64,000 bases of DNA. Source: Microbacterium esteraromaticum (GTDB taxonomy: Bacteria; Actinomycetota; Actinomycetes; Actinomycetales; Microbacteriaceae). Below are positions 29,903 to 45,743 of the stretch, one piece after another; positions within the stretch are counted from its first letter, which is position 1, and each line of letters opens with the position of its first letter. The stretch covers positions 1,798,001-1,862,000 of the forward strand of contig NZ_JAFBBS010000001.1 of assembly GCF_016907315.1 (NCBI RefSeq), in the 5' to 3' direction. A program made the position numbers and the translations under genes. Under the pieces are notes generated by a model. The model was not told the origin of the DNA. It saw only the letters and a program-made list of their open reading frames with translations, and searched no databases.

Positions 29903-31432
29903 GTGACCTCCCTGTGGCTCGACGACCAGCGTGAGCGCATCACGTCAGACACCTTCGAATCCGGCGCGCATTACGACGCGGTCATCGCCGGAGCCGGCAT
30001 CACCGGCCTCACCACCGCTCTGCTGCTGGCCCGCGCCGGACTCTCGGTCGCGGTGCTCGAGGCCAGGTTCGTGGGAGCCGTGTCGACGGGGCACACGACT
30101 GCGAAGCTGAGCCTGCTGCAGGGCAGCGTGCTCTCGGGCATCCTGTCGCGCGGATCGAGCCACGTTCTCAAGGCCTATGTCGAGGGCAACCGCGAGGGCC
30201 AGGCGTGGCTGCTGCGCTACCTCGAAGAGCACGGCGTCGCGGTTCAGCACCGCGACGCGTTCACCTACGCCTCGACCCCGGACGGCGTGAAGAAGCTGGA
30301 TGCCGAGTACGAGGCGTGTCGCAAAGCCGGCCTCGAGGTCGAGAGACTGCACACCCTCGACCTACCCTTCGAGACGCACGGCGGCCTGCGCCTGCGCGAC
30401 CAGGCCCAGTTCGATCCCATGGACGTGCTGCGTGCGCTCGCCGCGGATCTGCGCGAGCGCGGTGGTGTGATCATCGAGGGTGCCAGGGTGAAAGACGTCG
30501 AGACCGGCGAGCCGAGCAAAGTCACGACCTCGCTCGGTGAGGTGTGGGCGGGCACGGTGGTGCTGGCCACGGGCATCCCGATCCTCGATCGCGGCCTGTA
30601 CTTCGCCAAGGTGAAGCCGATGCGCTCGTACGCTCAGGCGTACCGGGTGCCGGGGGAGCTGCCGCAGGGCATGTATCTCTCGATCGACTCGCCAGGGCGG
30701 TCGCTGCGCACGGCACCGGTGGGCGGAGAGAACCGCCTGCTGGTGGGCGGCAACGGCCACGTCGTCGGACGGGAAGACGACACGCAGCGACTCGTTGACG
30801 ACCTCGAGCAGTGGACCCAGCAGCACTTCCCCGGTGCGGTGCGTACCCACGCCTGGTCGGCGCAGGACTACCAGTCGATGAACCTGGTTCCCTTCGTCGG
30901 CTGGATGCCGCGCACCGGCAAGCACGTCGCGCTCGCCACCGGCTACAACAAGTGGGGCATGACCAACGGGGTCGCCGCGGCGCTGAGCATGACCGCCGAC
31001 ATCCTCGACGGGAACATCTCGTGGGCGCAGACCCTGCACCACCGGATCACCCTGCCGAAGGACGTCGCGAACAGCGTCGTCGCGAATGTACAGGTGGCGG
31101 GCGAACTGGCATCCGGATGGGCGGGAAGCCTGCGCCCGCTGCCCGACGAGCCGCCCGCCGAGGGCGAAGGCGTCGTCGGTGCGGAGGACAAGGAGCCGGC
31201 CGCGGTCTCGACCGTCGACGGCGTGACGTGCAGGATGTCGGCCGTCTGCACGCACCTGGGTGGCATCGTCTCGTGGAACAGTGCCGAGCGTTCGTGGGAC
31301 TGCCCGCTGCACGGCTCTCGCTTCGCCGCCGACGGCACGCTGCTGGAGGGCCCGGCGGTCGAAGACCTCAAGCCGATCGACGAGCCGGAGCTGCCCGGGG
31401 ACGAGCACGTTCCGGTGGAGGACCTGCCGTAA
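29903..31432 (+). CDS. FAD-dependent oxidoreductase with C-terminal Rieske domain
   Basis: 509 residues: an N-terminal DAO-type FAD domain (GAGITGLTTALLLARAG near 30) followed by a Rieske [2Fe-2S] domain. The Rieske ligands are Cys/His in CTHLGG and CPLHGSRF, close to the C-terminus. This is the YhfW-like architecture of many Gram-positives and actinobacteria; its physiological substrate is unknown. GTG start with GAAGGAG 6 nt upstream. The gene is alone on the plus strand, divergent from the kinase/esterase operon and followed by two large hairpins. Confidence 0.88.
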   Translation: MTSLWLDDQRERITSDTFESGAHYDAVIAGAGITGLTTALLLARAGLSVAVLEARFVGAVSTGHTTAKLSLLQGSVLSGILSRGSSHVLKAYVEGNREGQAWLLRYLEEHGVAVQHRDAFTYASTPDGVKKLDAEYEACRKAGLEVERLHTLDLPFETHGGLRLRDQAQFDPMDVLRALAADLRERGGVIIEGARVKDVETGEPSKVTTSLGEVWAGTVVLATGIPILDRGLYFAKVKPMRSYAQAYRVPGELPQGMYLSIDSPGRSLRTAPVGGENRLLVGGNGHVVGREDDTQRLVDDLEQWTQQHFPGAVRTHAWSAQDYQSMNLVPFVGWMPRTGKHVALATGYNKWGMTNGVAAALSMTADILDGNISWAQTLHHRITLPKDVANSVVANVQVAGELASGWAGSLRPLPDEPPAEGEGVVGAEDKEPAAVSTVDGVTCRMSAVCTHLGGIVSWNSAERSWDCPLHGSRFAADGTLLEGPAVEDLKPIDEPELPGDEHVPVEDLP

Positions 31433-31529
31433 GAATCTGGGTCGGGCGGGCCGAGGTGCGCGCTACCACCTGACGTCGTCGGCGGCCACTTTCGATCAGC
31501 CGCGACAGAGGTGCGCGTCAGCGACGGCA

Positions 31530-31565
31530 GGGCTTGCGACGTGGGCGAGACCTCGCCGCAAGCCC
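31530..31565. terminator. Terminator-like nested hairpin after the FAD/Rieske gene
   Basis: GGGCTTGCG and CGCAAGCCC enclose a second stem GCGAG/CTCGC. It lies about 98 nt after the stop, between converging genes. Confidence 0.55.
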
Positions 31566-31586
31566 TCGGGATCGGTCTATGGGCCA

Positions 31587-31623
31587 GATCGGTCGACCAT
31601 CCGTTCCGGACGGTCGACCGATC
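31587..31623. terminator. Second inverted repeat between converging genes
   Basis: 12-bp arms GATCGGTCGACC/GGTCGACCGATC, with an inner TCCG/CGGA pair. It ends 10 nt before the stop of the mini-anchor gene, so it is the likely terminator for the minus-strand cassette. Confidence 0.55.
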
Positions 31624-31633
31624 GAGGTCGATG

Positions 31634-31819
31634 TCACACAGTGACACCAGCCGCCTGCGCACGCTTCTTGGGAAGGATGCGCTTGACCGCAAGGGCGGCG
31701 CCGATCAAGGTGAAGACAGCGAGCCCGACGAAGATCGGGTTATCTGCACCGAAGATTGCGGCTCCGCCGGCGCTGGCTGCACCGAGTCCGGTTGCTGCTG
31801 AGGGTCCGTAGATGTTCAT
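31634..31819 (-). CDS. 61-residue mini sorting-signal-like membrane protein
   Basis: No signal peptide. A flexible Gly/Ala/Ser-rich head (2-21) is followed by AIFGADNP (21-28), one hydrophobic helix (29-45) and a basic tail (KRILPKKR, 46-53). This is the layout of a sortase sorting signal with almost nothing else. The positive C-terminal side predicts an outside N-terminus. A canonical LPxTG is missing; AIFGA or FGADN may replace it. AAAGGGA lies 5 nt before the ATG. Third gene of a cassette with a sortase-like lipoprotein and a processive GT2 enzyme. Substrate role is inferred from context. Confidence 0.6.
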   Translation of the reverse strand: MNIYGPSAATGLGAASAGGAAIFGADNPIFVGLAVFTLIGAALAVKRILPKKRAQAAGVTV

Positions 31820-31844
31820 ATTTCCCTTTCGATGTGATGGTCGG

Positions 31845-32990
31845 TTACCATGTCGCGCGCGTTCGTAGCACGGAGGCCGAGAGCGCCCACAAATGGATTA
31901 GCTGCAGGTACAGGTCGTAGGGCATCTCGATGATGAGTACGCCAGCGAGCAGTACCTGTTTCCACCCCCGGCGGGAAACCGTGATGGCCCGCTCGAAGAC
32001 GAAGATGAGAGTGACGGCCATCCAGATCCAGTGCAGATAGACAGCACCTGTCACGAACGCAGCCACCAGGGTTGAGAGATAGATCGCCGTTGCGAGGATG
32101 CCGATGAGTCCCCAGATCTGGAGGAACCAGTGCTTGGCCGTATAGCGGGTGAGGCCGTAGTGCCAGTTGTTCTCGATGGCGCCGCGCTTCCAGCGGTAGC
32201 GCTGACGCCATAGGTCTCCCCACGATTCCATGACCTCGGTCTTGAGAGCACACGACGGCGGGGCGATGATCTTGTACCCGATGTGCTGGATTGCGAAAGT
32301 GAGCTCGTTGTCTTCAGTGAGCGCTTTCGTGTCGTAGACGTGCGAGATCTCGCCAGTGCCGGGGATACGGCCGGATTCCCTGGCGGCGATGACGTCTTTG
32401 AGGCAGATTGCGGAGAAGAGAGTTGCTGTCCCCGTGAGGACGAGTGTTTGGCCCTGCTTGCGCTCCACGTCGCGGGCGTAACGGGCGTATTCATTGCGCT
32501 GAAGCATCCCTACGAAGCCGCCGCCGTCTTTGCCGAGGAACACTCCGCCGACGGCGTGGTATCCCTGGGCTCGGTGTCGGAGGGCGTTGGCGATGAAGTC
32601 CGGGGCGAGAGTTGAGTCGGCGTCCATGACGAGGACGTGATCGATGTAGTCAAGATCGGGAAGGTTCGCGTCGAGCCATTGGTTCAAGGCTCCAGCCTTC
32701 TTGTGGGAGTTGTCGGAGGTCGTGAAAACGTCGGCGCCGTGAGCGCGAGCGAGTGTTGCCGTGTCATCGGTGCAGTTGTCGGCGATGACAACGATCCGGT
32801 CGGGTAGGCGTGACTGCCGACGCAGGCTTTCGAGCGTCTCGACGATGGGCGCCAATGGCTCTTCTGCTCCGCGGCCGTTCCCGTGATGTTCGGAACGTTG
32901 TCTTCTGCCTTCGTTGTGTGCGGGGATCAGTACGGTTACCCGGGTGGGCTGAGCTCCCACCGCGATCCACGTGCTGCGAACCCGCCTCAT
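31845..32990 (-). CDS. Processive GT2 glycosyltransferase (BcsA/hyaluronan-synthase-like)
   Basis: 381 residues. The catalytic GT2 core has VTVLIPAHNEG (18-28), ADNCTDDT (70-77), VMDADS (metal/UDP site, 122-127), TED (catalytic base, about 225-227) and QRYRW (263-267). The last is diagnostic of processive polymer-making enzymes. Three or four C-terminal helices follow (290-335 and 345-375), but no N-terminal helices precede the core, unlike most synthases. A basic/hydrophilic insertion (29-47) follows the first motif. The start is MRRVRSTW, in an ATGA overlap with the sortase stop, not the longer upstream frame. It probably makes a surface polysaccharide from a UDP-sugar. Confidence 0.85.
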   Translation of the reverse strand: MRRVRSTWIAVGAQPTRVTVLIPAHNEGRRQRSEHHGNGRGAEEPLAPIVETLESLRRQSRLPDRIVVIADNCTDDTATLARAHGADVFTTSDNSHKKAGALNQWLDANLPDLDYIDHVLVMDADSTLAPDFIANALRHRAQGYHAVGGVFLGKDGGGFVGMLQRNEYARYARDVERKQGQTLVLTGTATLFSAICLKDVIAARESGRIPGTGEISHVYDTKALTEDNELTFAIQHIGYKIIAPPSCALKTEVMESWGDLWRQRYRWKRGAIENNWHYGLTRYTAKHWFLQIWGLIGILATAIYLSTLVAAFVTGAVYLHWIWMAVTLIFVFERAITVSRRGWKQVLLAGVLIIEMPYDLYLQLIHLWALSASVLRTRATW

Positions 32991-33652
32991 GACCGCACCT
33001 CCACGAATTGAGCAACGGCAATGAAGTTGTGCGTCGACGGACTCCGGTCGGCGTTCTGCAGGCAGGTGACGAGGATGAGCCGACCGGCCGTCGACGTGGA
33101 ACCGTCGCCCCAGATATCTGCGCGATACGGCAGTTCGGTCTTCAGCGGAGTGTCGACGGATTGGATCCGGTAGACCAGCCAATGAGAACCACTGGTCTGC
33201 GTGCGGAGCAGCACCTCACGACCGACGAGCTTCTTCCCTTGGGGATACAGGCGGTTGAAGACGGTCTCGAATGATGGCGCGGAGTGCCCGGCGATGATCG
33301 TCAGACTTGAGCTGTCAGTGCTGGGCAGTGCAAAGTCCATGCACTGGAAGACACCGCCTCGATTCGGACCGCTAAGCGGCGGCTCGATGGTGGCTCGGCA
33401 ATCCCGTGGCATAGGGCCGACGGCTGCATCGATGGCAAGACCAGGGTCAGAGGAGAGAATGGCGATCTGCTCCGCGGGTCCTTCCGGGATCGCCGGTCGC
33501 GACGGTGTGGCCGCTGTTGTCGGCAGCGGCTCGCCCGGCGCAGAAGCGGGAGGCACAGGCTTCAGATGCGTCGATCCCGTACACGCCGCCACGCCAAAGG
33601 CGACGGCGGCGAGCAGCACGATGAGGGCCGGTATGCGGCCGCGATGAGACAC
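32987..33652 (-). CDS. Lipid-anchored sortase-like transpeptidase (class E/F type)
   Basis: 221 residues. GTG start with GGAGGG 7 nt upstream gives a signal peptide ending in VAAC, so Cys24 is the likely lipidated residue. A Pro/Ala/Ser linker (30-58) leads to a sortase barrel: IIAGHS with His123, VTCLQ with Cys197, and Arg203 in NADRS. VGREVLLRTQTSGSHWLVYRIQSVDTP is the family's central sheet. The triad is complete. Most sortases are anchored by a helix; a lipobox is unusual. First gene of the cassette, followed by a GT2 and a 61-residue sorting-signal-like protein. Confidence 0.75.
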   Translation of the reverse strand: MSHRGRIPALIVLLAAVAFGVAACTGSTHLKPVPPASAPGEPLPTTAATPSRPAIPEGPAEQIAILSSDPGLAIDAAVGPMPRDCRATIEPPLSGPNRGGVFQCMDFALPSTDSSSLTIIAGHSAPSFETVFNRLYPQGKKLVGREVLLRTQTSGSHWLVYRIQSVDTPLKTELPYRADIWGDGSTSTAGRLILVTCLQNADRSPSTHNFIAVAQFVEVRS

Positions 33653-33836
33653 GATGTCGCCCTCCATGTACGAACTGAGCTTTGGGGAGGGGGGCGATGT
33701 GTGATTGTGCGGCTGCATCCGATTCCGGAACGAGATGCAGTGCTCTCCGATCTTGACGTGCCTCAGGGAAGGGCGAAGGGCCTTTTCGCCCTTCGTGAGG
33801 GGTCTATCCCCGCTGATTCACCCCGGGTGAGTTCGT
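33653..33836. promoter_or_regulatory. Divergent intergenic region of the sortase and LuxR genes
   Basis: 184 bp holding the divergent control region. A stem-loop (33761-33800) has inner arms AAGGGCGAA/TTCGCCCTT and outer CCTCA/TGAGG. TTGACG occurs at 33753-33758 but without a matching -10 at 16-18 nt. The position suggests a site for the LuxR-type protein or a shared leader structure. Confidence 0.45.
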
Positions 33837-35399
33837 ATGCTCATCCCCATGGGCAACGATTTGGGGATCGGCTCAGCGGGGGACTTTGGGCTGGGGAACG
33901 CGCTGTACGCGGAAAAATGGAATGAGGCTGCGGTCATCATCGAGCGGCATTTCGTCACTCTGGTGACTTTCACCGACCAGTTGCCGCTGCTTGTTAGCGC
34001 GCTCGAGCTACTCCCCGAGCCAGTTCGTGACGCCCACCCGGCACTGAAGCCGGCCTACGAATTCGTGGGCGTCAGGTCGCTGCACGGTCAACTCGTGTCG
34101 CTCGACCTCGAGCGAATCCGGGCAGGCGGTGAAGCAGCGCGCCTCGAGATGCATAGGCTCGCTGTGGCATTCATCGCACGGCGTCTCCGGGGGGCTGCGG
34201 CAGACGCGTGCGCCATCGTCGATGACGCAGAATCTGCCGTACTCGAAGCAGTCCACCAGATCGGTTCGCCGGCAGAGTCGTTCGCCTCGTTGTATTTCCT
34301 CCATGCGGGAATCAGCCACCACGTCGCCGGCGATCTCAGCGGCGCAAAGGACCTGTATCTCCTGGCATGGCAGTGGCGTCAACCGAATGCCCCAGGCACG
34401 GAGCGCCTCGTCGGTAGACACCTTGCCCTACTGGCCGCGTTGAGCGGCGAGACCGTGGCCGCTGAGCATTGGCTCGCCATGACCGACCCGCAGCTAGAGC
34501 ACAAAACAGCGGCCAGGTTCCGGGTCGTGAGCGACGGGGTGCGGATCCTGGCCCAGTTCATCATCGCGCTGGACCGACTCGACCTCGAGGCAGCTGGCAG
34601 ACTTGTGGCTCGTCTGCCCAGCACAACTCGATACTTCGAGTTCGGTCACTACTCGGAGTGGGCGTACAGCCGATGGCTAATGTTGACGGGACACCCTCGT
34701 CAGGCGAATCACCACATCGACGCACTGAGTCGCCTGCCAATACCTGCGGAGAGTTACATTAGTCACCTGCTGCGCAATGCGCGCGCCGACGCCATGCTCG
34801 CGGAAGGGGACGTGGACGGTGCAATCGCCCTTTTGCCCACGTCAGGGGACAGTGCTTGGACACACCTGCTCCGTGCGCGAGCCGCAGCGATACGCAGTGA
34901 GTTCCGGATGGCGATAGGCGAACTCGACGCAATACCCTCCGTTCACAGTCGATATGTGGACGACGATGCCCTCGTGTTGCGGGCGGCGTCCTGGTATCGG
35001 CTGGGGGAACATGAGAAGGCGCGTGAAGCGTCGGCCAACCTGGTTAGAAAATTCGATGGCCGGCTGTACCCGCTCGCCACGGTACCTCGGTCCGTGGTCA
35101 CTGCCCTTATCGACCTAGTCGACGGCGAGCCGGGTCGAGGCAGGATTCGCGATGCCTGGGGTGAACGTGATTTGCCGGAGATATACCCATTCCGACTTAT
35201 AGCGGCCCTAACCCTTACTGACCGCGAACGAGTGATCATCAACCACCTAAAGGCGGGTGCTTCACGTCGCGAGATCGCAACCGTTGAAATTGTCAGCCTC
35301 AACACTGTCAAGTCACAGATCAGTACGCTCTATCGCAAACTGGGAGCCCGAAGCGGAGATGAGGCGATCGCGAACGCCCAGGGCCTGGGGCTGATCTGA
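33837..35399 (+). CDS. LuxR-type transcriptional regulator with helical-repeat domain
   Basis: 520 residues. The C-terminal 65 residues are a LuxR/GerE helix-turn-helix (TLTDRERVIINHLKAG, NTVKSQISTLYRKLGA). The N-terminal 450 residues are alpha-helical, with repeating patterns such as ALLAALSGETVAAEHWLAM, like TPR/MalT sensor arms, but without an N-terminal ATPase P-loop. Codon use is markedly less GC-biased than in neighbours (gttaga, aataccc, taacccttact). The start is ATG at 33837 or 33849. Divergent from the sortase cassette, so it probably controls it; a peptide or sugar signal is plausible. Confidence 0.8.
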   Translation: MLIPMGNDLGIGSAGDFGLGNALYAEKWNEAAVIIERHFVTLVTFTDQLPLLVSALELLPEPVRDAHPALKPAYEFVGVRSLHGQLVSLDLERIRAGGEAARLEMHRLAVAFIARRLRGAAADACAIVDDAESAVLEAVHQIGSPAESFASLYFLHAGISHHVAGDLSGAKDLYLLAWQWRQPNAPGTERLVGRHLALLAALSGETVAAEHWLAMTDPQLEHKTAARFRVVSDGVRILAQFIIALDRLDLEAAGRLVARLPSTTRYFEFGHYSEWAYSRWLMLTGHPRQANHHIDALSRLPIPAESYISHLLRNARADAMLAEGDVDGAIALLPTSGDSAWTHLLRARAAAIRSEFRMAIGELDAIPSVHSRYVDDDALVLRAASWYRLGEHEKAREASANLVRKFDGRLYPLATVPRSVVTALIDLVDGEPGRGRIRDAWGERDLPEIYPFRLIAALTLTDRERVIINHLKAGASRREIATVEIVSLNTVKSQISTLYRKLGARSGDEAIANAQGLGLI

Positions 35400-35675
35400 G
35401 TGTCTCGCGGCTGCCGCGGCTGAGAAGCTAGTGTCCAACCGCCGTCCCCTCATCTCGTGAGCGGAATTCGGCAGATGAGGAGCAAGAATCCACCCTATGC
35501 TCCCCGGAAGTGCATGTTCCAAGAGCTGGTCCCATATACGGCTCCCCGTGGATTCATGTATAGCGATGGTTAGGGTGACATCGTCATCACGGACCTCCTG
35601 ATGTGAGCGCAGAGGTGACCGCTGCGCCTACTCAGCGGTGAAGAAGTCGCAGCAGCGCGCGAGGAGCGGTGGTCG
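35400..35675. other. Spacer after the LuxR gene, possible gene relic
   Basis: 276 bp, lower GC than its surroundings. On the minus strand AGGAGG stands 6 nt before an ATG (35587), but the frame ends after five codons (stop at 35570-35572), like the head of a decayed gene. An imperfect hairpin ACCGCTG/CAGCGGT (35618-35639) lies 37 nt beyond the TetR stop and may terminate that operon. A 69-codon minus-strand frame (35313-35522) overlaps the LuxR 3' end and matches nothing I recognise. Confidence 0.4.
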
Positions 35676-36269
35676 TCAGGTTCGCGGGTCCGCCAGCTCA
35701 TCGAGGTGACGCCCGAGGGTGTCCAGCATCTGCGTCGCGGCCTGCGGATGCCCCCTCCAAAGGCCATGCATCGCGATCCCGTCGATGAGTGCACGCAGTC
35801 GCCGCGCCTCATACTCCGGGTCGCGCCCGCGACCGAGCTGCCCCGCGTCGGAGAGTATGTCGACGGCGGACGCACATGCCCGGTCGACGGCGGCGCTCAG
35901 CGCGATGGCGGCTGGCTGCAGACCATCGTCGGTCAGGGCGAGGACGCCGAGTTGAACCTGCGCGAGCAGTTCGGTGCGTCGATCGGCGTCAAGGGGAAGA
36001 AGCTGGGCGAGCAGTGCATCGACGAGCGGCCGGCCGCTGAGATCGAGCGCCAGGATCCTGCTCGCGGCCCGCTGCTCGACGAGCTGCAGGCAGTACACGC
36101 GCAGCGCCTGCTGCGTGGGAAACGCGCGTCGCAGCGATGCTGCGGCGATACCCGCCTCTGCGGCGACGCCCCGCACAGAGAGCCCGGCAAGGCCGTCGCG
36201 CTCGAGCACGCGCAGGGCCGCGGCCGCGATCTGCTCTGTGCGCTCTTCGGCGTCGATTCTCCGGGGCAC
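35676..36269 (-). CDS. TetR-family regulator
   Basis: 197 residues. Helix-turn-helix GLSVRGVAAEAGIAAASLRRAFPTQ near 25-50. GTG start (PRRIDAEERTEQI) is preferred because it sits 2 nt after the stop of the upstream membrane-protein gene and matches typical TetR N-termini. Second gene of a two-gene operon. A 14-nt palindrome in the operon's promoter region is the probable operator, indicating autoregulation. Confidence 0.85.
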   Translation of the reverse strand: MPRRIDAEERTEQIAAAALRVLERDGLAGLSVRGVAAEAGIAAASLRRAFPTQQALRVYCLQLVEQRAASRILALDLSGRPLVDALLAQLLPLDADRRTELLAQVQLGVLALTDDGLQPAAIALSAAVDRACASAVDILSDAGQLGRGRDPEYEARRLRALIDGIAMHGLWRGHPQAATQMLDTLGRHLDELADPRT

Positions 36270-36271
36270 GG

Positions 36272-36829
36272 TCAGGCTCCGGGAACGGTGGTCGGCCGGG
36301 CGGCGGATGCCTGCTTCGGCCACACCGTGTAGCTCAGTGCCCAGATGAGGTCGATCGCGAGGACGATGCCGAGGATGCCGAAGTAGCTCGACAGTGCGGC
36401 GGTGCGCTCAGCGTCGTCCACGAGCAGGATGATGGCGCCGAGGATGGCGGCGGCGATGCCCATGGCGACCGCGGTGAGCAGCGCGTCGCGCCAGCATTTC
36501 GCCGTGTAGCGGGCGCCGGTGAGCCGCTCGGGCGGCGGCCCGTCGGCGAACCGGTGCCGGAAGCGGACGTCGGCCCAGGCGACCATGCGCTTGCCGTAAG
36601 CGACGGATACGCCGATGTAGATCGCGGCCAGCCCGTGCTGCCAGGAGGCCGTCCCGCCGCCGAGCAGATCGATCGCGACGAGCCCGAGCAGGATCACGTC
36701 GATCAGTGGCGCGAGCACGAGAAGAGCGGCGCCGAGTCGGGATCGGCGCAGGACGTAGCGCGCGGCGAGTCCGGTAAGGATTGCCACCCAGAATGCGACC
36801 TCGCAGATCACGATCGCTGTCAGGATCAC
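36272..36829 (-). CDS. Four- to six-helix membrane protein of unknown function
   Basis: 185 residues, nearly all hydrophobic: VILTAIVICEVAFWVAILTGLAARYVLRR, then three to four further helices (LAPLIDVILLGLVAIDLL, LLTAVAMGIAAAILGAIILLV, YFGILGIVLAIDLIWALSYTVW). GTG start with GGGGAGG 5 nt upstream. No recognised family. Co-transcribed with the TetR gene that follows 2 nt later, so it is probably a transporter-like or membrane-property protein controlled by that TetR regulator. Confidence 0.75.
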   Translation of the reverse strand: MILTAIVICEVAFWVAILTGLAARYVLRRSRLGAALLVLAPLIDVILLGLVAIDLLGGGTASWQHGLAAIYIGVSVAYGKRMVAWADVRFRHRFADGPPPERLTGARYTAKCWRDALLTAVAMGIAAAILGAIILLVDDAERTAALSSYFGILGIVLAIDLIWALSYTVWPKQASAARPTTVPGA

Positions 36830-36850
36830 GACGCCTCCCCTCGTTTTGTT

Positions 36851-36864
36851 AGTACAAGTGTACT
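36851..36864. promoter_or_regulatory. Palindromic operator of the membrane protein-TetR operon
   Basis: AGTACAAGTGTACT, 6-bp arms AGTACA/TGTACT around AG, 22 nt before the membrane-protein start. It overlaps a TACTAA -10-like element on the minus strand. Size and place fit a TetR operator. Confidence 0.7.
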
Positions 36865-36954
36865 CGAATAACGGGCGGATCAATGCATGCGGCTCGCTTG
36901 CTCGCTCGCTGAACGGCCGCGGGAGAGAGCGACCACCGTGGCAGCGCACGCGCG

Positions 36955-43298: not shown

Positions 43299-43390
43299 CT
43301 CTCACTCCTCGTGCGCCTCAGGGATGCGTCGACGACCGAAGACCCCCGGTCAAGGGTAACCGCCCAGCTCCTGCGCGAGAGGATGGAGGG

Positions 43391-43714
43391 ATGCCCCGCC
43401 TCACCCCTGCTCTCGCCCTTACTGCCCTTCTGACTCTCGGACTCGTCGGCTGCGCGGCACCGGCCGCCGATGAGACGGCACCGGATGCCTCGCCTTCGGC
43501 ATCCGCTCCCGACCTCACGGTGGATGCGCACGGCGGCGCCGTCGTCACGCTCTCGACGATCGGCGGCACCCTGAACATCGCCGGCGTCCGCAGCGCGACG
43601 CTGGTGAAGAACTCCGTCGGCGGCGACCTGCTCTGCGCCGACGGCGTGCAGGCGAACGGCGACGGCAACTCGGTCGCCGGTGACGTGACGGGCACCTGCT
43701 CCCGGGTGGCCTAG
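43391..43714 (+). CDS. Small secreted lipoprotein of unknown function
   Basis: 107 residues. A signal peptide ending in LVGC gives lipid attachment at Cys21; a Ser/Ala/Asp linker follows and then a beta-rich stretch (GGAVVTLSTIGGTLNIAGVRSATLVKNSV). Two cysteines near the C-terminus (LLCADG, GTCSRVA) may form a disulfide. The repeat-like GG/TL pattern hints at a small beta-helix, similar to DUF3060 domains, but this is a guess. Start supported by GGAGGG just before the ATG. Confidence 0.7.
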   Translation: MPRLTPALALTALLTLGLVGCAAPAADETAPDASPSASAPDLTVDAHGGAVVTLSTIGGTLNIAGVRSATLVKNSVGGDLLCADGVQANGDGNSVAGDVTGTCSRVA

Positions 43715-43867
43715 CGTCTCGCAGGGCCTGACGCTTCCCGAGTGGGCCGGCTCCGCCGGGTTGCGCGGCCGAGAGGTCGAAAAGGCACCGCTACGGCGCG
43801 CTTCCGGTGCTTTTGTGACCTCTCGGGCGGGCCGGCGCAACCCGCGAAGCCTGGCGTCAGCGAGACG
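43715..43867. repeat. 153-nt imperfect inverted repeat
   Basis: Matching segments in order on both arms: CGTCTCGC, TGACGC, GGGTTGCGC, CCGAGAGGTC, AAAAG, CACCG, around a 14-nt centre. The left arm begins right after the lipoprotein stop, and the right arm contains the stop codon of the converging Pr6Pr gene. It folds into a long stem with interior bulges and can terminate both genes. Its length and modular match also fit a MITE-like element. Confidence 0.75.
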
Positions 43868-44558
43868 CGCGGGCCTCGGCGCGGCGGCGAGACCACCAGA
43901 TCACCCCGGCGCCGACGGCGATGATCGCCACGGCGATGCCGACGATGTAGCCGGCGACCCCGAGGTAGCCGCCGGGAGTGAGGTGCGGGTCGAGGAACGG
44001 ATACGGATACCAGTACGGGGCGCCGCTGCCCGGTGAGGTCACGAGGTTCGCGCGCATCAGGGTGTAGATCGCCCAGGCGATCGGGAACGCCGCGATGACC
44101 CCGAGGGCGGGCCAGCTCAGCATCCGGCGCTTCGGCGCGAGCAGCACATCAACCAGCAGGAACAGCGGGATGACGACGTGCAGCACCTCGTTCGACCACG
44201 GCACCGTCGAACCCTGCGGCAGCTCGATGCCCCTCAGCAGCACGTTGTACACGATGCCGGTCGTGATCATGTACGTCGCGACGCAGGCGAGCATGACGGC
44301 GAGCCAGCGGGGCTCGCGAGTGACCTCCCGGCCCGAGGTCCACGCCCAGACGGCGGCGACGAGCAGCATGATCGCGGCCGCGAGATTCGAGAGCACGGTG
44401 AAGAAGCTGAAGAAGTTCACCGCGACGGTGGGCAGGTGCGACCCCCATTCCGTCGTCGACTGCGCGGCGTTGGTCAGGGTGCGAGTCAGCTGGGCGATGA
44501 TCGCGGCGAATCCGAGGAGGGATGCTGTGAGCCGAGCCCACGGCCACCAGGTCGTCAT
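43857..44558 (-). CDS. Pr6Pr family membrane protein
   Basis: 233 residues, six helices. PTVAVNFFSFFTVLSNLAAA and the GIVYNVLLRG segment are characteristic of the Pr6Pr (FAR-17a/AIG1-related) family, whose function is unknown. A C-terminal Arg/Ala-rich tail follows the last helix. Its last codons lie inside the right arm of the long inverted repeat. It is preceded on the same strand by the EamA gene with 33 nt between. Confidence 0.85.
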   Translation of the reverse strand: MTTWWPWARLTASLLGFAAIIAQLTRTLTNAAQSTTEWGSHLPTVAVNFFSFFTVLSNLAAAIMLLVAAVWAWTSGREVTREPRWLAVMLACVATYMITTGIVYNVLLRGIELPQGSTVPWSNEVLHVVIPLFLLVDVLLAPKRRMLSWPALGVIAAFPIAWAIYTLMRANLVTSPGSGAPYWYPYPFLDPHLTPGGYLGVAGYIVGIAVAIIAVGAGVIWWSRRRAEARASR

Positions 44559-44591
44559 GCTCGAACTCTAGCGACCAGCAGCCGCGAGCGG

Positions 44592-45521
44592 TCAGGTGCG
44601 CCGACGCCAGCGGGTGCGGGTCACGAGCACTCCCAGCAGGCACAGCGCACCGCCGAGCAGCATCAGCGGGGTAGGCACCTCGCCGAGGATCATCCACGAC
44701 AGCAGGATCGCGATCGCCGGCACGACGTAGGTCGTCGCCGAAGTCTGGCCGGCAGAGCTGCGCTGCAGCACGTACGCCCAGGTGGTGAAGGCGATGGCGG
44801 TGGGGAAGATGCCGAGGTAGACCACCCACAGCGTCGCGTCGACCGGTGCGGTGTGCAGCGCCACGACGAGGCGCCCCGTCCACGGCAGCAGCGCGACGGT
44901 TCCCGCGGCGGCGCCGAGCCAGGTGAGCGTGGTCGAGTCGGCGCCCGAGGTGAGCAGGTGCTTCTGCAGCAGCGTGCACCCCGCGTACATGACCGCCGCG
45001 AGCAGCGCCAGCAGCAGCCCGGTGACGTCGACCCCGGCATCCGTCCGCGAGTTCATCCCGATCAGCACGACGCCGACGAAGGCGATCGGCGCACCGATGA
45101 TCAGCGGACGGGGGAAGCCTTCGCGAAGGAACAGGCCGCTGAACACGACCACCATGAGAGGCGCGAGGTTGACGACCATCGCGGCCGTTCCCGCATCGAG
45201 CGTGAGCTCGGCGGCGTTGAGCGCGAGGTTGTAGACGCAGAACCAGCCGACCCCCCAGACCGCCACCAGCCACCAGTGCCGTCGCTCGGGAAGCCGGATG
45301 CCGCGGCGCAGCGCGATGAGCGTGAGCACGGCCGTGCCGACCGCCATTCTCAGCAGCGCGAGCGCACCCGGCTCGTAATGCGGACCGGCGCCGCGGATGC
45401 CGATGAACGCGGATGCCCAGAGAACGACCGTCACGAGCGCGGCGAGCAGCACGAGCGGTCCGCTCGACCGTGGCGCCCCGGAGGGCGCGACGCGGGTGAC
45501 GGGGTCGGTGGATGCGGGCAT
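44592..45521 (-). CDS. EamA/DMT superfamily transporter
   Basis: 309 residues with ten helices as two EamA repeats (VLWASAFIGIRGAG in the first, LAALLAAVMYAGCTLLQKHLL beginning the second). This family exports amino acids, purines or other metabolites; the substrate is unknown. It ends in RTRWRRRT. Divergent from purA. Confidence 0.88.
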   Translation of the reverse strand: MPASTDPVTRVAPSGAPRSSGPLVLLAALVTVVLWASAFIGIRGAGPHYEPGALALLRMAVGTAVLTLIALRRGIRLPERRHWWLVAVWGVGWFCVYNLALNAAELTLDAGTAAMVVNLAPLMVVVFSGLFLREGFPRPLIIGAPIAFVGVVLIGMNSRTDAGVDVTGLLLALLAAVMYAGCTLLQKHLLTSGADSTTLTWLGAAAGTVALLPWTGRLVVALHTAPVDATLWVVYLGIFPTAIAFTTWAYVLQRSSAGQTSATTYVVPAIAILLSWMILGEVPTPLMLLGGALCLLGVLVTRTRWRRRT

Positions 45522-45743
45522 GCTCCGATCGTCGCAGGTGCCGCCGACATCGGGCGAGCACGCTCAGCGACAGCATCCGTCGCATTCCTGCCACCCGGCC
45601 GCGGCGGACGCGGCGGCGCGTCACGCGCAGACCCGCCCGGATGCCCTGAAAGGGCTCTCCGATAGGATGGTCTCGCCCGATCAGGGCCAGCTCATCTGCC
45701 GGTGCAAACCCGGCGAAAGCGTGCAGCACCAGGGGGTACACGC

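Follow-up and report, generated by a model that had tools for sequence, protein, structure and literature searches.

The glycosyltransferase family 2 (GT2) synthases of the PgaC-PgaD and IcaA-IcaD systems have a small membrane partner. In Actinomyces oris, the sortase SrtA reportedly anchors the surface protein GspA. The accessible part of one paper describes GspA as a wall-anchored glycosylated protein (PMC6381275). Class E sortases recognise LAXTG, according to the portion available of PMC5148588, and exosortase systems (PEP-CTERM/EpsH, and XrtG with a TIGR03111 GT2) stand beside exopolysaccharide loci in the account accessible in PMC1569441. Here I describe a cassette in a stretch of 64,000 nucleotides (nt) from Microbacterium esteraromaticum (contig NZ_JAFBBS010000001.1; hereafter the window), in which a sortase-like protein, a GT2 synthase-like protein and a microprotein of 61 amino acids (aa) are encoded together. 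Judged from its recurrence across genomes, the cassette quite possibly makes a surface glycan and fixes it to the wall together with a dedicated microprotein, a reading that I hold tentatively and with slightly less than even confidence.

As in class E anchoring through LAXTG or LPXTG, a sortase gene adjoins one for a protein with a motif, a transmembrane (TM) helix and a basic tail. Unlike in that system, the substrate here is about 55 aa long, has no signal peptide by inspection and is tied one-to-one to a glycan synthase, and the sortase and motif of the window are non-canonical. In the GspA/LcpA/SrtA system, as far as its available description goes, an LCP enzyme glycosylates a surface protein, whereas here a GT2 synthase and the microprotein are encoded together. 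PgaC-PgaD and IcaA-IcaD likewise combine a GT2 with a small membrane partner, and PgaC_IcaA (TIGR03937) is the best NCBIfam match of the window GT2; however, its 45.6 bits fall short of the equivalog cut-off of 422.3, and the partner here has one TM helix, a sorting motif and a Tyr. The exosortase systems, in the accessible account, share a genetic link between a sorting enzyme and polysaccharide synthesis, but the sortases here belong to PF04203 and TIGR03111 gives the window GT2 29.7 against a cut-off of 363.95. No paper on a GT2-microprotein-sortase module was found among the matches listed from the open-access literature, and the accessible main text of a paper on Sporangium exopolysaccharide (PMC13390465) contains neither 'LPXTG' nor 'small protein'.

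The three genes lie on the minus strand of the window, the sortase-like gene at 32987..33718 (alternative GTG start at 33652), the GT2 gene at 31845..32990 and the microprotein gene at 31634..31819. The stop of the sortase gene and the start of the GT2 gene share an ATGA, and 25 nt separate GT2 and microprotein genes. An earlier prediction, made from this DNA alone (the original prediction), had placed these three open reading frames (ORFs) and a divergent fourth, a LuxR-type gene, at the same coordinates with the same overlap and gap, and all of this is as it stated.

How general is the pairing of GT2 and microprotein? A scan of genome contigs gave 284 GT2 relatives. With the best 80 retained and further genome stretches added there were 72 loci, and less three copies (L164-L166, equal to L020, L017 and L019) 69 distinct ones. 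Loci L032-L035 and L037-L081 were not used, their GT2 matches being partial or mostly of 25-37% similarity. Types A and B were assigned from the microprotein together with GT2 similarity, and the pairing is therefore given for all 69 loci, since a figure of 54/54 for type A would be circular. A short ORF with a single TM helix lies directly 3' of the GT2 gene in 65/69 loci (54 of type A and 11 of type B, the latter without a sorting motif), starting between 8 nt before and about 110 nt after the GT2 end. None was found in L023, L194, L200 and L191, its place being masked in L191. Locus L023 comes from a metagenome-assembled genome (MAG) labelled Bifidobacterium breve; its GT2 groups with that of L194 on the tree, and the name is possibly a binning error.

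Searched from the other side, 26 of 394 class-level genomes hold a microprotein match at E <= 0.001, and where the match reaches E <= 1e-8 a GT2 relative adjoins it in 20 of 21 cases (window included). Matches to the microprotein model with no GT2 relative beside them were also seen, at G536:C4:293775-293921 and G334:C77:5481-5609. A later search of 396 phylum-level genomes found a match at E <= 1e-7 in seven, and three of the seven are new genomes from outside the class of the window. These three replicates have a GT2 (47, 44 and 37% identity) and microproteins that start MYQ, MYG and MYG and carry LAYTG, LPETG and LPDTG, motifs of a kind that the model used in this search already held.

The microprotein of the window matches no Pfam family, and its sole NCBIfam match is meaningless (E 0.36). 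Its relatives form a family of 147 unique sequences, which fall into 36 clusters under 60% identity; 101 members came from 8000 scored database candidates through a model that already held the motif. Sources name members hypothetical protein and, in several cases, LPXTG cell wall anchor protein. The most conserved column, with the highest information content, is an N-terminal Tyr, present in 34/36 clusters (Tyr4 in the window copy). It is retained although the offset of the ORF from the GT2 gene varies, and is thus not a by-product of gene overlap. An L[AP]x[TS]G motif occurs in 25/36 clusters, against a mean of 0.65 and a maximum of 4 in 500 shuffles, which makes a chance motif in Ala/Gly-rich sequence unlikely. 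The remaining 11 clusters hold [TSA]xP[FWY]xG (four), PxAATG (five) or neither (two), both patterns having been written after the sequences were seen. Counted by member, 126/147 have an L[PA]xTG-type motif; counted by eye, 38/54 type-A loci, part of them obtained by searching with the microprotein, have L[AP]x[TS]G.

In the window copy the putative sorting motif is PSAATG (residues 6-11, window 31787..31804), with a presumed cut between T10 and G11, and the TM helix spans about residues 27-46 (window 31682-31741), ahead of a basic tail. Across the 36 clusters the strong TM columns are F, T/A and an invariant A, followed by a conserved R/K and P. Lys and Arg average 0.42 before the TM helix and 3.97 after it, so the N-terminus is predicted to lie outside. 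The original prediction had called this protein little more than a sorting signal, a description that leaves out its near-invariant N-terminal Tyr and its conserved TM/basic segment.

A sortase gene stands beside the pair, within 0.63 kb, in 19 of the 54 type-A loci: four encode the window type, nine a class F-like and six a class E-like enzyme. It may be upstream on the same strand, upstream and divergent, or downstream. Nine of the 19 passed the PF04203 cut-off in direct scans (the window, L005, L014, L018, L022, L173, L174, L178 and L180) and five more in a whole-genome search (L167, L168, L170, L177 and L179, from G314, G586, G385, G398 and G665), while the calls at L002, L003, L009, L012 and L015 rest on local models. 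A general model from all 19 yielded no further sortase in the fetched loci. Among four of the six class E-like enzymes scanned against NCBIfam, class E was the best match in 4/4 and over its cut-off in one.

The whole-genome search placed a PF04203 match within 1 kb of 7/31 loci in 27 type-A genomes, where 0.097 would be expected. Of 38 type-B GT2 loci, spread over 37 genomes, 0 had such a match within 2 kb, and 4.9 kb was the shortest distance. The 38 were taken as type B by exclusion; among 25 inspected, a motif-less microprotein was seen in 20 and none in five. The difference gives a Fisher p of 0.0024, or 0.00013 for 10/31 when three more linked loci found by direct scanning are counted (the window and one each in G361 and G665), this extra scanning being on the type-A side only; both values are rough because the loci are related to each other. 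Linkage by chance is unlikely on these figures. On a GT2 tree of 67 rows I read the sortase-linked loci as six groups (L018/L174/L179; L022; L177/L180; L173/L178; the main class F-like group; and the window type), to which a single origin of the linkage with later losses is a possible alternative. In the tree run L179 was labelled class F despite a much better class E score. The original prediction was to be given up if GT2, sortase and small protein were not co-conserved; they recur together in several arrangements, so it does not fall on that ground.

The motif varies with the sortase. L[AP]xTG accompanies class E-like sortases in 6/6 loci, [TSA]xP[FW]xG the main class F-like group in 7/7 and PxAATG the window type in 4/4, the last two patterns written post hoc; PxAATG is also found in P0053 and P0086. 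The microproteins of the other class F-like pair carry LALTG and LAMSG. L016, from the strain that also supplied the sortase-linked L015, has a class F-type motif and no linked sortase itself; L004, L021, L182 and L183 have no linked sortase and none of these motifs in full. That motif type tracks sortase type is suggestive, and no more than that because independent events are few.

Why would a synthase need a microprotein at all? The type-B loci bear on this. Type-B GT2s, 40-46% identical in a family search, occur in the same family, the window genome having a copy at G000:C1:2023596. Where seen, their microprotein has a single TM helix and a weak match to the type-A model, no sorting motif, and a different conserved tail, near RRxETRSIYPD; the TM/basic segment thus persists in a related set that lacks the motif. 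In addition, hydropathy finds at least two N-terminal hydrophobic segments in 5/5 type-B GT2s tested and N-terminal TM segments in 0/23 type-A GT2s. Because type B keeps a TM microprotein and because of this difference between the synthases, it is probable that the microprotein serves the synthase through its TM part; the exposed sorting motif is a type-A feature. Taken further, the microprotein could be a small structural subunit of the synthase, PgaD/IcaD-like or a stand-in for missing TM helices; cutting by the sortase would then do no more than mature, switch or release the synthase, and no anchor joining peptide and glycan would be made. The high conservation of TM columns F, T/A and A and of the R/K and P after them agrees with such a role, but it leaves unexplained the L[AP]x[TS]G motif in most clusters, the pairing of motif and sortase and the repeated linkage to a sortase, and I regard this explanation as somewhat unlikely.

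The persistence of the TM helix in type B also bears on a simpler proposal, namely that the microprotein belongs among ordinary surface peptides anchored to the wall, forming an adhesive or hydrophobic coat, and is merely co-expressed with an exopolysaccharide synthase, with no direct partnership with the glycan. The LPXTG anchor label given to several family members favours it, and sortase-anchored chaplins of Streptomyces are a known parallel in the portion available of PMC5148588. Co-expression, however, needs neither the one-to-one placement immediately downstream of the GT2 gene nor the TM helix retained in type B, which makes this proposal improbable. The window genome's type-B copy (G000:C1:2023596-2024600; L104, L203) is paired with a microprotein whose C-terminus reads ETRSIYPDAPL; a LuxR-type gene (PF00196) lies immediately upstream and, by eye, an EAL-like ORF downstream on the other strand. 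The GT2 of this copy is possibly a second-messenger-controlled synthase.

The window sortase, a membrane-attached protein, scores 29.2 bits with PF04203 (cut-off 26.6), and its predicted fold matches solved sortases in the sortase beta-barrel, so that the sortase-like identity first proposed for it holds. A search of solved-structure sequences with a sortase profile gave no match at E <= 1; nor does any NCBIfam family match at E <= 1, so the cut-off of class_F_sortase is not reached. The profile of the window type aligns with that of the linked class F-like enzymes (probability 93.9, E 1.6e-7); kinship with class E is rejected, the profile probability against the class E-like enzymes being 2.3.

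The original prediction had described a lipid-anchored sortase-like protein with a His, a Cys and an Arg (H123, C197 and R203 from the GTG start at codon 23, which are H145, C219 and R225 of the longest ORF). The His and Cys (codons at 33284-33286 and 33062-33064) are invariant in 9/9 aligned window-type sequences. Of the nine, just the window copy has the Arg (1/9), two others carry one at position 230, and N231 is invariant. The lipobox, VAAC, is likewise peculiar to the window copy, the other eight, one of them cut short N-terminally, having no Cys there by eye. The linked class F-like set shares the invariant Asn and keeps the Arg in L167, L168 and L170 and lacks it in L009, L012, L014, L015, L173 and L178, while class E-like linked enzymes keep an Arg in 6/6. 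Judged from these alignments, the window sortase is not a standard His-Cys-Arg enzyme. The window type, with GT2, microprotein and a CE4 gene, is also present in L002 and L005, from MAGs labelled Saccharibacteria/Patescibacteria (46-47% guanine plus cytosine, GC), where transfer between these bacteria and actinobacteria, or a binning error, is possible.

The GT2 assignment with its QxxRW motif is borne out by three GT2 Pfam models over their cut-offs and by DAD, TED and QxxRW, invariant in 23/23 aligned type-A enzymes; Pfam, the motif alignment and the model together indicate a GT-A domain and C-terminal membrane helices. The structural model matches hyaluronan synthases best (E 8.9e-13), with cellulose and chitin synthases also at the top and a mannosyltransferase ranking high. 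Instead of polymerising, the GT2 might transfer a single sugar, or a few, to a lipid or the microprotein, the sortase displaying the resulting glycopeptide. The near-invariant Tyr would suit this, as Tyr-linked glycans of bacterial S-layers are known (in the accessible part of PMC2943079), and there is a weak GT21 match, at 21.1 bits against a cut-off of 21.7. The best structural matches, the mannosyltransferase aside, are nevertheless polymer synthases. The neighbouring genes suit a polymer as well: CE4 deacetylase genes lie beside 5/54 type-A loci (L002, L005, L006, L007 and L008; Pfam-checked in L005 and L006) and GH26-like genes, found by blastp, beside 7/54 (L018, L021, L174, L179, L181, L182 and L183; Pfam-checked in L174, L179 and L182). 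I therefore consider the addition of a few sugars very improbable. Among other neighbours (75 ORFs from 37 type-A loci, hand-picked from a list of 193 scored by third-position GC, GC3), GH26 came first with five, among the top 25 of 95 families. The CE4 and GH26-like neighbours fit an extracellular polymer or glycan, and to that extent the surface glycan of the original prediction; cutting by the sortase and joining of glycan and peptide stay conjectural.

If the cassette does make a glycan and fix the microprotein with it, the following sequence can be proposed. The GT2 would polymerise sugar and pass the chain through the membrane, while the microprotein would sit in the membrane with the basic tail on the inner side and the short N-terminus, which has almost no charge, exposed, and its TM/basic segment would act with the GT2 as a small subunit. 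The sortase would then cut the microprotein and fix the Tyr-bearing N-terminal peptide to the wall, where this peptide may anchor the GT2 product, the Tyr being the likely point of attachment or contact. The genes, their linkage, the conserved motif and Tyr, the recurrent sortase and the predicted folds are what the analysis shows; the topology, cleavage, transfer to the wall, subunit role and covalent link between glycan and peptide are what I propose from them. In a more specific form, the microprotein would be primer or linker of the glycan, the chain becoming joined to the N-terminal Tyr and the glycopeptide then moved to the wall by the cognate sortase, which I consider rather unlikely.

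Several observations weigh against wall fixation of a microprotein with its glycan. No linked sortase was detected at 35/54 type-A loci, some near contig ends, or at any of the three replicate loci, and linkage is therefore not obligatory; a sortase somewhere in the genome, found in 27/27 type-A genomes and 3/3 replicates, is also found in 33/37 type-B genomes. The motif of the window copy is not a canonical L[PA]xTG, though TM helix and basic tail are present, and inspection of the translations shows no classical signal peptide but a single hydrophobic segment towards the C-terminus. With the Arg unconserved in the window type (1/9) and kept in 3/9 linked class F-like enzymes, transpeptidation is uncertain. 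On the side of the synthase, the type-A GT2s have no N-terminal TM segments, and QxxRW is found in non-processive glycosyltransferases too.

In the portion available of a 2026 study (PMC13251363), the physiological roles of class F sortases are called unknown, and a quadruple class F mutant of Actinoplanes missouriensis showed no phenotype. For certain sortases, class F-like enzymes among them, the cassette predicts natural substrates; it also unites a protein family otherwise labelled hypothetical or LPXTG anchor protein, and offers a small defined genetic unit for asking whether sortases anchor polysaccharide. Were the Tyr glycosylated, the product would be a protein-primed, sortase-fixed wall glycan; were polysaccharide anchored by the sortase, this would be an LCP-independent way of fixing a synthase-made polysaccharide to the Gram-positive wall.

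The divergent regulator (33837..35399, plus strand; GC 61.9%) has the LuxR-type domain expected of it (PF00196, 29.6 bits against 23.5) and no listed ATPase family in Pfam, and the helical repeats described for it correspond to tetratricopeptide repeat models below cut-off. A protein search at E <= 1e-15, with the 8000 best candidates scored, gave itself and two relatives at 28%. Against the ORFs of 31 loci, blastp gave matches to the helix-turn-helix (HTH) region alone, in two loci, and tblastn at three further loci gave one HTH-region match. Not being co-conserved, it is rejected as a part of the module, and the proposal that LuxR control belongs to the unit goes with it. A perfect 10-bp inverted repeat in the divergent intergenic region between the sortase and LuxR genes (33768..33794) is a putative operator.

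The cassette sits in an islet. Window 31432..36954 is missing by blastn and tblastn from G713, a genome of the same genus with 81-93% nucleotide identity across aligned flanking pieces, where the flanks are about 50 bp apart. The four cassette genes have a GC of 61-64%, against 69% for the window; the LuxR gene shares the low GC, yet is not co-conserved. A TetR-type gene inside the absent stretch has 71.5% GC, so the low GC does not extend over the whole of that stretch. With one relative aligned, gain in the window genome seems more likely than loss from G713. At window 31570-31623, between the microprotein gene and an FAD-dependent oxidoreductase-like gene, lie two inverted repeats, one of 23 nt (74%) and one of 17 nt (94%), which may be a terminator or the islet edge. 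A second stretch, window 43380-45652, also has no blastn match in G713 while its flanks align.

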